A DNA stretch of 56,180 bases from Arthrobacter sp. zg-Y238 (GTDB lineage: Bacteria; Actinomycetota; Actinomycetes; Actinomycetales; Micrococcaceae): the NCBI RefSeq assembly GCF_024385525.1, contig NZ_JANFLU010000009.1:1-56180 (forward strand). Reading direction: 5' to 3'. A program made the translations under genes and the position numbers. Positions 44,230 to 47,390 of the stretch are shown here, piece after piece. The notes under the pieces were generated by a model, which saw nothing but the letters and a program-made list of their open reading frames with translations, searched no databases and was not told the origin of the DNA. Numbering within the stretch: the first letter of the stretch is position 1; each line of letters begins with the position of its first letter.

Positions 44230-44269
44230 GCCCGGAAAATCTTTTCTCTCTCCGGGGCCGTAGCAGGCA

Positions 44270-44324
44270 CTGCTGACAGCAGATCCGCCGAGGGCAGATA
44301 CCCCTTCTCCTGCCGTCCGGGCAG
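44270..44324. promoter_or_regulatory. Two palindromes in the clpP upstream region
   Basis: CTGCTG-A-CAGCAG at 44270-44282 is a perfect 13-bp dyad. CCTGCC-GTCC-GGCAGG at 44309-44324 is a second dyad. GGCAGA also occurs at 44293-44298. They lie within 70 bases of the clpP start and are good candidates for binding by the XRE regulator encoded after the clpP pair. Confidence 0.55.
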
Positions 44325-44339
44325 GCGCAGCGTGGGGGC

Positions 44340-44969
44340 ATGAATGAAACCGAAAAAGCCCCGCTGTTTACCGAAAGAATCCGCCAAGAGTTTTTCGAGC
44401 GCCGAGTCCTCGTCCTGGACGGGCCGCTGGATGACGACAATGGAACCCTGCTGGCCACGCAGCTGATTGCCCTGGCGGCTGAGGACCCGAAATCAGATAT
44501 AGCACTCTGGATCCATTCCCCTGGTGGATCCGTCCCCGCAATGCTGGCGATCCGCGACGTCATGCGGGCAATCCCCAACGACGTATCCACCCTCGCTTTC
44601 GGAATAGCCTGCAGCGCCGGGCAGTTCCTGCTGTCGGCCGGCACACGCGGCAAGCGCCGGGCGCTGCGACACTCCCGCGTGCTGATGCATCAGGGGTCGG
44701 CGGGACTCGCCGGTACTGCGGCCGACGTCGAGCTCCAGGCGGACGATCTGCGCTACACGCGGGACACCGTGCTGCGCCTGATCGCGGAGGACACCGGCCA
44801 GCCCGTCGAGCGGATCTTTGCCGATTCCCTGCGTGACCACTGGTATACCGCAGAGGAAGCCCTCGACTACGGCTTTATTGACGCCATCGCCGGGTCCCTG
44901 GCGGAGTTCAGGCCGGCGGGCCGGGTGACGGCCGGGTTTCGGAGCCTGGTCCGGGAGGGAGTCCGATGA
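44340..44969 (+). CDS. ATP-dependent Clp protease proteolytic subunit, catalytic
   Basis: 209 residues. ClpP serine peptidase; forms tetradecamers with a Clp ATPase. The triad is complete: Ser92 in GIACSAGQFLL (usual context AASMG), His117 in VLMHQGSAG, Asp166 in LRDHWYT. The oxyanion-loop SPGGSV is intact (about 60-65). The Cys next to the catalytic Ser and the MHQG instead of IHQP are divergent. The start ATG (44340) has only G5 nearby as ribosome binding site. Overlaps the next clpP by ATGA. A second, separate pair (clpP1P2 beside clpX) is expected elsewhere in such genomes. Confidence 0.93.
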   Translation: MNETEKAPLFTERIRQEFFERRVLVLDGPLDDDNGTLLATQLIALAAEDPKSDIALWIHSPGGSVPAMLAIRDVMRAIPNDVSTLAFGIACSAGQFLLSAGTRGKRRALRHSRVLMHQGSAGLAGTAADVELQADDLRYTRDTVLRLIAEDTGQPVERIFADSLRDHWYTAEEALDYGFIDAIAGSLAEFRPAGRVTAGFRSLVREGVR

Positions 44970-45553
44970 GCACGTACACCATCCCCAACGTCGTCGCCCA
45001 GCATCCCCGCGGCGAACGGATCATGGACATTTACTCCCACCTGCTCACGGAGCGGATTGTCTACGTCGGCACGGCCATTGACGCCGGCGTCGCCAATGCG
45101 CTGATAGCCCAGCTGCTTTTCCTGCAGTCGGACAACCCGGAAGCCGATATCGAGCTCTACATCAACTGCGAGGGCGGAGATCCCAGCGCCATGCTGGCCA
45201 TCTACGACACCATCCGCTTCATCCGCCCGTCCGTTGCCACCACGTGCGTGGGGCAGGCCGTGGCTGTGGGGGCCGTCCTCCTGGCCGCCGGCGCCGAAGG
45301 CAAACGCGCCGCGCTGCCGCATGCGCGGATCATCCTGCACCAGCCCGCAGCGTCAGGTCGAGGCACCATTCCCGACCTGATCCTGCAGGCGGACGAGCTG
45401 GTGCGGGTGCGCTCCGACATGGAGGAGGTCCTCGCCCGCCACACCGGGCAGAGCCTGCAGACGCTCCGGACGGATACCGACCGGGACCGGTTGTTCACTG
45501 CCGAAGCGGCGCGCGAATACGGCCTGGTGGACCACGTAATCCAGCAGGGGTGA
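44966..45553 (+). CDS. ClpP paralogue with Ala at the catalytic Ser position (ClpR-like)
   Basis: 195 residues, full-length ClpP fold. The active-site segment reads GQAVAVGAVLLAAG; the canonical form is GQAASMGA, so residue 100 is Ala instead of the nucleophile Ser (codon GCT). His125 (ILHQP) and Asp174 (DRDRLFT) are kept. The oxyanion loop is also changed, CEGGDP for SPGGSV. By analogy with ClpR of cyanobacteria and plastids, it is probably a structural partner of the active subunit encoded just before, with which it overlaps by 4 bases. Proteolytic inactivity is inferred from the residue change. Confidence 0.9.
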   Translation: MSTYTIPNVVAQHPRGERIMDIYSHLLTERIVYVGTAIDAGVANALIAQLLFLQSDNPEADIELYINCEGGDPSAMLAIYDTIRFIRPSVATTCVGQAVAVGAVLLAAGAEGKRAALPHARIILHQPAASGRGTIPDLILQADELVRVRSDMEEVLARHTGQSLQTLRTDTDRDRLFTAEAAREYGLVDHVIQQG

Positions 45554-45570
45554 CTGGTCCTTGGGCTATG

Positions 45571-45594
45571 TCCCTGTACCTGTCCCTGTGCCTG
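45571..45594. repeat. 12-bp tandem repeat (2 copies)
   Basis: TCCCTGTACCTG (45571-45582) followed by TCCCTGTGCCTG (45583-45594), differing at one base, in the short gap between the convergent clpP and XRE genes. Confidence 0.8.
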
Positions 45595-45610
45595 TTTCAG
45601 GCCGCGACTC

Positions 45611-45940
45611 CTAGGCCGCGAGACGGAAGGCGTTTTGCGGAGCCGTGACGGGGGCGGCGTCGCCTGCGGTGATCAGGGACTCGGCCACCCCGAGGGTCAG
45701 GTCCAGCAGGGTGAGGCCCAGTGCCCCGGCGACGGCGGCCACCATCTCACTGGACGGTTCCTTGAGCCCGCGTTCAATTTCCGAGAGGTACTGCGGCGAA
45801 ATCCCCGACCGGGCAGCGAGCCCGCCGAGGGTCCAGCCGCGTTCGTGCCGCAGCCGGCGCAGGAGTTCTCCAAGCACCTGGCGCCACAAAGGGTCGGAGG
45901 CGGTTTCGGACGGGCCGTTGAAAGGAAGAATCTCGCTCAT
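45611..45940 (-). CDS. XRE-family regulator, ClgR/PopR-like, ending in Leu-Ala-Ala
   Basis: 109 residues. The helix-turn-helix (about 20-80) shows ELLRRLRHERGWTLGGLAARSGISPQYLSEIERGLKEPSSEMVAAVAGALG, close to ClgR/PopR proteins that activate clp genes in actinobacteria. The last residues are NAFRLAA. In Streptomyces PopR and ClgR the terminal Ala pair makes the protein a ClpP substrate, so this is a plausible feedback degron. TACCAT lies 5 bases before the ATG and AAGG touches the codon, so the transcript may be leaderless. It converges with the clpP pair, 57 bases apart. Confidence 0.85.
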   Translation of the reverse strand: MSEILPFNGPSETASDPLWRQVLGELLRRLRHERGWTLGGLAARSGISPQYLSEIERGLKEPSSEMVAAVAGALGLTLLDLTLGVAESLITAGDAAPVTAPQNAFRLAA

Positions 45941-46174
45941 CCTTGATGGTAAAACGCAGTGCGGCCCGGGGCCATGGGTCCGGGCCAGCGGCAGTTCTGC
46001 CCAGAGCGGAGGGCGGCAACTGGCGTTGCCCGCAACCTGAAGCGGGCGGGTCTTTCGTCCGGGCGGGCACAGTCCTACAGTGTGGAGCATGGCCGGGAAC
46101 AGCGTGCGGCTGCCCCACCGAGAGCCAGTCCAGGGGGCGGTCTTCCGTCCCGCCATTGCAAGGACGTGAGGACC

Positions 46175-47011
46175 ATGACGGAAACCCAAAGCGGTGTCGA
46201 AGCCGATCGGGAACTCAAAGCAAAACTCCGGGCGGTATGGGCGCTCGGGAACTATACCGCTGTGGCCACCGAAATCATTTCCGGTCTGGGTCCCGTGCTG
46301 GTGCAGGCCTGCAACATTACTGATCGAGACGAAGTGCTGGATGTCGCGGCCGGTACGGGAAACGCGGCCATTCCCGCCGCTGAGACCGGGGCCGACGTGA
46401 CCGCCTCGGATCTGACCCCGGAACTCCTGGAGTCCGGCAAGCGTCTGGCCGAAGCACGCGGGGCGCACCTCAGCTGGGTCGTGGCCGACGCCGAGGCTCT
46501 GCCATTCGCGGACGGGTCCTTTGACACGGTGATCTCCTGCGTGGGTGTGATGTTTGCCCCGCATCACCGGCAGACGGCAGCCGAACTGGTGCGGGTCTGC
46601 CGGCCCGGCGGTCGCATCGGCCTGATCAACTGGACGCCCGAAGGATTCATCGGACGGATGTTCGCCACCATGAAGCCGTACGCCCCGCCGCCGCCTCCCG
46701 GGGCGCAGCCGCCGCCGCTCTGGGGGAGTGTGGAGCATGTGCAGTCGCTGCTGGCCGGCCGGGTGCGGGAGTTCCGGGCTGAGCGCCGGACGGTGCGCGT
46801 TGACCGGTTTGCGACGCCGGAGGAGTTTCTCGCTTTCTTCAAGGCGAACTACGGGCCCACCATTGCGGTGTACAAGTCGATTGCTGGCAGCCCCGACCAG
46901 GCCGCAGCACTGGACGAGGAACTGATGGCTCTGGTTCGCCGATTCAGCGCCGGCACCGGCGGCACGGCCATGGACTGGGAGTATCTGCTGGTTACCGCGC
47001 ACCGCGCCTAG
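46175..47011 (+). CDS. SAM-dependent class I methyltransferase
   Basis: 278 residues. Rossmann methyltransferase of the UbiE/Methyltransf_11 class: motif I VLDVAAGTGNAAIPAAETG, motif II DLTPELLESGKRLAE, motif III DAEALPFADGSFDTVISCVGVMF, motif IV RVCRPGGRIGLINW. The substrate is unknown. The ATG follows AAGGACGTGAGGACC. The preceding 234 bases (45941-46174) are intergenic; TACAGT near 46075 is a possible -10. A repeat-rich non-coding kilobase follows. Confidence 0.9.
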   Translation: MTETQSGVEADRELKAKLRAVWALGNYTAVATEIISGLGPVLVQACNITDRDEVLDVAAGTGNAAIPAAETGADVTASDLTPELLESGKRLAEARGAHLSWVVADAEALPFADGSFDTVISCVGVMFAPHHRQTAAELVRVCRPGGRIGLINWTPEGFIGRMFATMKPYAPPPPPGAQPPPLWGSVEHVQSLLAGRVREFRAERRTVRVDRFATPEEFLAFFKANYGPTIAVYKSIAGSPDQAAALDEELMALVRRFSAGTGGTAMDWEYLLVTAHRA

Positions 47012-47088: not shown

Positions 47089-47390
47089 GCCGTGCACAGC
47101 TTCCCAGCAAATGGTGCAGCTGTGACTAGTGGGGTCACATTGGCGCCCATACGTCACAGAGCCTGGGACCCTGTACCGGACTGGGCCATCGCCGTGCACA
47201 GCCTCCCAGCAAATGGTGCAGCTGTGACTAGTGGGGTCACATTAGCGCCCATGCGTCACAGAGCCTGGGACCCTGTGCCCGGACTGGGCCATCGCCGTGC
47301 ACAGCCTCCCACCAAATGGTGCAGCTGTGACTGATGGGGTCACATTGGCGCCCATACGTCACAGAGCCTGGGACGCTGTGCCCGGACCGG
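47089..47390. repeat. Three tandem 102/103-bp direct repeats
   Basis: Units begin at 47089, 47191 and 47294 with GCCGTGCACAGC and are nearly identical. Each contains TGTGAC and GTCACA about 7 bases apart, then a second GTCACAGAGCCTGGGAC. The third unit starts one base late relative to a 102-bp period because of an inserted C, so a common reading frame is not kept. No spacer sequence separates the units, so this is not a CRISPR array. Confidence 0.92.

Follow-up and report, generated by a model that had tools for sequence, protein, structure and literature searches.

One-sided and repeated loss of the catalytic triad in the second subunit of accessory ClpP pairs of Actinomycetes

Introduction

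Why would a bacterium encode, in two overlapping genes, one ClpP subunit with a complete active site and a second one without a nucleophile? This question is raised by a stretch of DNA of 56,180 nucleotides from Arthrobacter sp. zg-Y238 (contig NZ_JANFLU010000009.1), referred to in the following as the window. Here, we analysed how real and how widespread the altered active site is, what the second subunit retains, and to which of the known Clp systems the locus corresponds.

Results

The window encodes an additional ClpP pair with an altered second subunit

The two reading frames overlap by ATGA (44966-44969), as given in a preliminary description of the window, and both products match the ClpP profile PF00574 (180.6 bits for the clpP3-like and 221.2 bits for the clpP4-like protein; cut-off 20.2). 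We could confirm the residue states given there as well. The first subunit has the full triad and the SPGGS loop (residues 60-64), all invariant across 27 aligned sequences including the window protein, and the second retains His125 and Asp174 next to an altered loop, CEGGD at 68-72, and does not have the Ser-His-Asp triad of an active peptidase because of Ala100. In profile searches against solved chains, those named proteolytic subunit 1 were among the best matches of the first subunit (237 bits), and the second subunit matched many ClpP chains, the best with 212 bits and those named subunit 2 with 183-186 bits. The AlphaFold model of the second subunit was of low confidence (mean pLDDT 40.7) and that of the first of mediocre confidence (68.4), and neither provided a usable structure. 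The host genome contains four ClpP genes, and since the other two are adjacent on contig 8, each with a full triad, we conclude that the clpP3/clpP4-like genes represent an additional pair.

Table 1 Features of the accessory clpP locus in the window.
Feature	Position	Strand	Remarks
Cassette of PopR-box-like site, clpP3-like, clpP4-like and popR-like genes	44240..46021	.	limits approximate
PopR-box-like palindrome TCCGCCGAGGGCAGA	44284..44298	+	42-56 bp upstream of the first start codon
clpP3-like gene	44340..44969	+	209 aa; Ser92-His117-Asp166, SPGGS loop
clpP4-like gene	44966..45553	+	195 aa; Ala100 for catalytic Ser, CEGGD for SPGGS
Codon 100 of the clpP4-like gene (GCT, Ala)	45263..45265	+	nucleophile position by alignment
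popR-like HTH regulator	45611..45940	-	109 aa, C-terminus RLAA; HTH_31 and HTH_3 over cut-off

The altered nucleophile is shared by relatives and maintained

The preliminary description had considered that relatives might carry Ser at this position, which would make Ala100 a point mutation or a read error. Ala also occupies the nucleophile position in a second genome of this species and in both further congeners in which the pair was found, so that a read error or a lone point mutation can be ruled out. Among the four genomes, the dN/dS of the clpP4-like gene is 0.07-0.13 in four pairs, from which we conclude that the gene is not decaying.

Among the 120 best of 7262 homologues of the second subunit, the nucleophile site is occupied by Ala in 90, by Ser in 24 and by Gly in six, and the 24 with Ser share the CEGGD-type loop. 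The loop residues Glu69 and Asp72 are each retained in 118 of these 120 proteins. Genera in which the Ala form occurs include Nonomuraea, Tsukamurella and Embleya. Within the CEGGD clade, the nucleophile site seems to need just a small residue, because Ala, Ser and Gly interchange there (a quick tree of 132 rows, many of whose branches are weak, requires 16 changes). His125 and Asp174 are retained and Cys68 is fixed in all 120 best homologues, a pattern that would also be expected if the second subunit had stayed active by means of a different nucleophile or a shifted triad, Cys68 of the CEGGD loop being one candidate. We consider this extremely improbable, since in other lineages it is the His or the Asp that is lost, with a residue other than Cys at position 68, and since the f4.g10 lineage, which also lacks the catalytic Ser, has Ser at that position.

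Triad residues are lost repeatedly in the accessory second and not in the accessory first subunit

With the second protein as query and an E-value of at most 1e-65, matches were obtained in 99 of 394 genomes of the class and in 29 of 295 genomes of the family, counts that depend on the cut-off and miss remote members; in the genus, the pair is present in 4 of 29 genomes. We collected 127 loci, three of whose 'second' rows (G100, G170 and G218) grouped among housekeeping ClpP2 in the tree. The first-type rows numbered 126, one being missing at a contig end, and after exclusion of the three misfiled rows together with their partners the accessory set comprises 124 second and 123 first subunits. 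The second subunit follows an intact first-type gene in 123 of the 124 loci, the remaining one being cut by the contig end, which agrees with the position downstream of an active paralogue that the preliminary description had raised. In addition, both pairs were compared in 54 of the 127 genomes with a locus, which were hand-picked for genus coverage and are not a random sample; each of them has at least four ClpP matches. The three misfiled rows are still included in the 54-genome triad readings, in the 193-row tree and in the 127-locus regulator count given below.

The triad is intact in all 123 accessory first subunits and in 44 of the 124 accessory second subunits; the other 80 have lost at least one triad residue, contrary to the assumption of the preliminary description that ClpP3P4-type pairs have both active sites. 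Broken down by sample, the second-subunit triad is intact in 35 of 96 cases in the class (own genome included) and in 9 of 29 in the family. In the hand-picked genomes, the corresponding numbers are 54/54 for ClpP1, 53/54 for ClpP2, 54/54 for the accessory first and 15/54 for the accessory second subunit. The replacements are diverse, with Ala, Gly, Glu, Trp or Phe for Ser, Gly, Gln or Asp for His, and Asn, His, Ser, Thr or Glu for Asp. In Streptomyces, for instance, the second subunit of S. fungicidicus (L161:4001-4603) lacks the catalytic His, and 118 of its 120 best homologues have Gly for this His but keep the Ser. Since 44 of 124 keep the full triad, its loss is not required in accessory second subunits. 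In a Corynebacterium MAG (L187:3998-4603), all three triad positions of the second subunit are altered (A, T and Q).

We also calculated a careful tree from 58 accessory second subunits and 12 ClpP2 after removal of the active-site columns. The intact/lost state changes eight times on it (at least seven changes are forced by the starred branches, and the bootstrap range is 7-8), a count that by itself covers losses and regains alike; one of these changes affects the ClpP2 of G319. With the quick tree of 193 rows, nine changes were obtained. Because ClpP2 is intact in 53 of 54 genomes, the ancestral state was most likely intact. The housekeeping exception carries Trp for the catalytic Ser (GQAAWASA) and is found in both genomes of one genus (G319 and G688). 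In G319, the accessory second subunit lacks the Asp as well, so that both ClpP2-type subunits of this genome look dead.

The second subunit retains the remaining family-invariant columns and mostly the docking-pocket aromatics

We compared 23 columns that are at least 95% identical in ClpP1, ClpP2 and the accessory first subunits with the accessory second subunits. In the latter, His125 is slightly less conserved (94%), identity at Ser68, Pro69, Ser100 and Asp174 falls to 47-77%, and the other 18 columns remain at 91-100%. Over 16 genome pairs, dN/dS is 0.03-0.19 for the second and 0.00-0.19 for the first subunit. That each of the three triad positions has been substituted in various ways, and that the pair occurs patchily in the genus, could also reflect relaxed constraint after duplication, with a second subunit that is heading to loss and a dead triad that has no functional meaning. 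This appears very unlikely to us, given that the dN/dS values are low and similar to those of the partner, that the 18 other invariant columns are retained, and that regulator and box are conserved (see below). Likewise, selection and column conservation do not support a reading of the second subunit as a pseudogene.

The docking-pocket residues are those named in PMC9765437 and PMC4416901, of which we transferred the positions of E. coli Tyr76 and Phe96 by alignment. In the window, they correspond to Trp57 and Ala77 in the first and to the retained aromatics Tyr65 and Phe85 in the second subunit. Both positions are aromatic in 54/54 ClpP2, 109/124 accessory second subunits, 43/54 ClpP1 and 3/123 accessory first subunits; a single pocket aromatic is retained in 117 of the 123 first subunits counted. 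The pocket of the first subunit is alike whichever state the triad of the second is in, and no association between the two was visible in the counts. As described in PMC4416901, just one of the three aromatic positions of E. coli is aromatic in M. tuberculosis ClpP1, and this subunit does not serve as the platform for the ATPases. The pocket aromatics are an imperfect proxy for docking, since most ClpP1 have both, yet the Streptomyces ClpP1 is reported not to dock ATPases, docking taking place via ClpP2 (PMC9765437).

A PopR-like regulator and a PopR-box-like site accompany the pair

A convergent popR-like homologue was found at 115 of the 127 loci, one of them a misfiled ClpP2 locus, in several cases at a distance of more than 400 bp. 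Its C-terminus reads AA in 102 and LAA in 95 of the 115 proteins, and the RLAA end of the window protein is a likely Clp degron. The 12 loci without a match include two misfiled ClpP2 loci and four with less than 200 bp beyond the gene; at the other six (G424, G562 and four of genus f25.g79), no popR-like gene was found within about 1.5 kb.

The motif TCTGCC-N3-GGCAGA is half of the PopR site in PMC9775585. The site at 44284-44298 is the only one in the window with one mismatch; allowing up to two mismatches, the window holds seven sites as compared with 4.1 expected, so that the count by itself is not significant. Across the loci, however, 108 of 123 first genes have a half-site with at most two mismatches in their 200 bp of upstream sequence, as compared with about 1.5 of 123 for shuffled bases. 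In S. lividans, PopR degradation depends on ClpP1P2, PopR is assumed to drive clpP3clpP4, and clpP3-clpP4 are expressed when ClpP1P2 fails (as described in PMC9765437). Because the window has the same parts, namely a second pair beside intact clpP1P2, an AA-ended PopR-like neighbour and an upstream box, a circuit of this type is likely here.

The locus seems to have been gained or lost as a unit

We compared the insertion site in six congeners (L296-L301), all of which are devoid of the pair. In all six, the left-flank alignment stops at window positions 44231-44246 and the right-flank alignment starts at 46158-46215. The gap between them amounts to 39 bp in L297, 98 bp in L301 and about 2 kb in the other four. 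In the three of these for which reading frames were determined, the gap holds one of 644-679 codons, whose start presumably resembles SARP-type regulators. L296 and L298 share an additional 63-91 bp with window positions 46022-46111; in L296, this match belongs to the 5' end of the long reading frame. Since the congener flanks enclose other DNA, the segment of about 44240-46021 seems to have been acquired or lost as one cassette. The subclade of the window comprises 30 rows (support 85) under eight family codes in the 193-row quick tree, a spread that fits transfer. The base composition of the cassette is not odd (GC 0.666 vs 0.688 and 0.667). Further downstream, behind a methyltransferase gene, the window contains a 103-bp unit in 2.9 head-to-tail copies with 94% matches (47089-47387).

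A phage origin was rejected: at least 120 phage records were matched by tblastn, all with less than 60% identity (best among the matches listed 52.9%). Plasmid carriage is a weak sign of mobility, since two of the four actinomycete plasmid records that we read may be chromosomal, namely that of Tsukamurella (NZ_LR134452.1, plasmid 10), on which obgE and proB are located close to the Clp pair, and that of Embleya, which is 5.7 Mb in size. A closer plasmid record was not found among 23 records, all of 60-80% identity.

Discussion

From these results we conclude that the locus is an accessory operon of the clpP3-clpP4-popR type of Actinomycetes, with a distinct inactivating change. The novelty as a system that the preliminary description had seen in it is not upheld, as the parts match the Streptomyces operon already known, which is likewise described as a bicistronic accessory pair beside clpP1P2 with a PopR activator (PMC9765437, PMC9775585). 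The plasmid record of S. fungicidicus shows the pair with a convergent HTH gene ending in LAA, and its second subunit lacks the catalytic His. In contrast to this S. fungicidicus record, the window alters the nucleophile and the SPGGS loop and keeps the His, and its second subunit falls into a different subclade.

The further suggestion that the pair may be a ClpR-type system holds only in part. On NF009204, which we take to be the ClpR model, the second subunit scores 161.9 bits against a cut-off of 263 (passed by 1 of 14 control genomes), the best value of the four ClpP of the genome (ClpP2: 157.9). It is sister to actinobacterial ClpP2 in trees confined to accessory and housekeeping ClpP subunits. 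Membership of ClpR is thus not supported. Of the catalytic triad, which is missing in ClpR, the second subunit has lost the Ser and kept His and Asp. What stands is the missing nucleophile beside an intact partner gene; the second subunit plausibly works like the ClpR of cyanobacteria and plastids, which PMC7966870 describes as a ClpP homologue without catalytic activity that takes part in a mixed core, and it appears to have arisen separately from ClpR.

Two other systems are alike in part. In mycobacterial ClpP1P2, the first-type subunit cuts and the second-type subunit docks the ATPases, its own activity being dispensable; however, this is the housekeeping core, and both its subunits have a catalytic Ser, as the mutants described in PMC9067928 and PMC4416901 document. 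Listeria ClpP1, a paralogue whose triad is altered as well, relies on its partner, but its change is from Asp to Asn only, and it becomes aligned and active in the complex (PMC9765437). Our searches of an open-licence library revealed no earlier survey of one-sided triad loss; we met only the remark in PMC9067928 on clpP alleles of S. coelicolor, Nocardia and Leptospira that lack critical residues, which were likened to ClpR.

What makes these loci of interest is that the triad is lost repeatedly in the second and never in the first subunit, and that the pocket shows the opposite pattern. Such repeated loss in related bacteria suggests a division of labour between the two subunits. We consider it likely that they assemble as a heteromer of two rings into an accessory backup Clp core; the first ring would cut, and the catalytically dead second ring would dock the ClpX/ClpC ATPase. 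If the second ring merely docks and helps to build the chamber, its triad would be free to drift. The AA-tailed PopR would be destroyed by housekeeping ClpP1P2, and upon failure of ClpP1P2 it would turn the operon on, so that the core would probably be induced at that point. According to published work, which concerns housekeeping ClpP1P2 and not an accessory pair, a Streptomyces core with ClpP2 S131A retains full activity (PMC9765437), the ClpP2 activity of M. tuberculosis is nonessential, and a strain with both the ClpP1 patch and the ClpP2 activity mutated grew like the controls (PMC9067928).

The dead second subunit might instead join housekeeping subunits such as ClpP1 and restrain the main protease as a brake or decoy. 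Cross-assembly is possible in so far as the accessory subunits group with ClpP1 and ClpP2, respectively, in the trees, and the S. hawaiiensis accessory ClpP-ADEP is described as blocking ClpP1 tetradecamers and pairing with ClpP2 (PMC12607617). However, a decoy needs neither the intact first-subunit gene that precedes it at all loci but the one at a contig end nor the docking aromatics that most second subunits retain, and we therefore regard a brake as unlikely.

Beyond the backup core with its cutting and docking rings, we are inclined, with some reserve, to think that selection has repeatedly built in Actinomycetes the asymmetric core that was engineered in the laboratory, in the form of a mobile three-gene cassette (PopR box, clpP3, clpP4 and popR) with a cut-only and a dock-only ring, and that ClpP2-type catalysis is generally dispensable in the class, which in one genus would extend to the housekeeping core. 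The loci amount to an experiment that nature itself has replicated and that addresses why inactive subunits occur in some Clp cores, and they correct the assumption that ClpP4-type subunits are peptidases. If our reading is true, the ATPase-docking ring of Actinomycetes need not cut, which would bear on the question of which ClpP subunit an active-site inhibitor must hit, and the accessory pairs would offer ready-made asymmetric cores for structural work.
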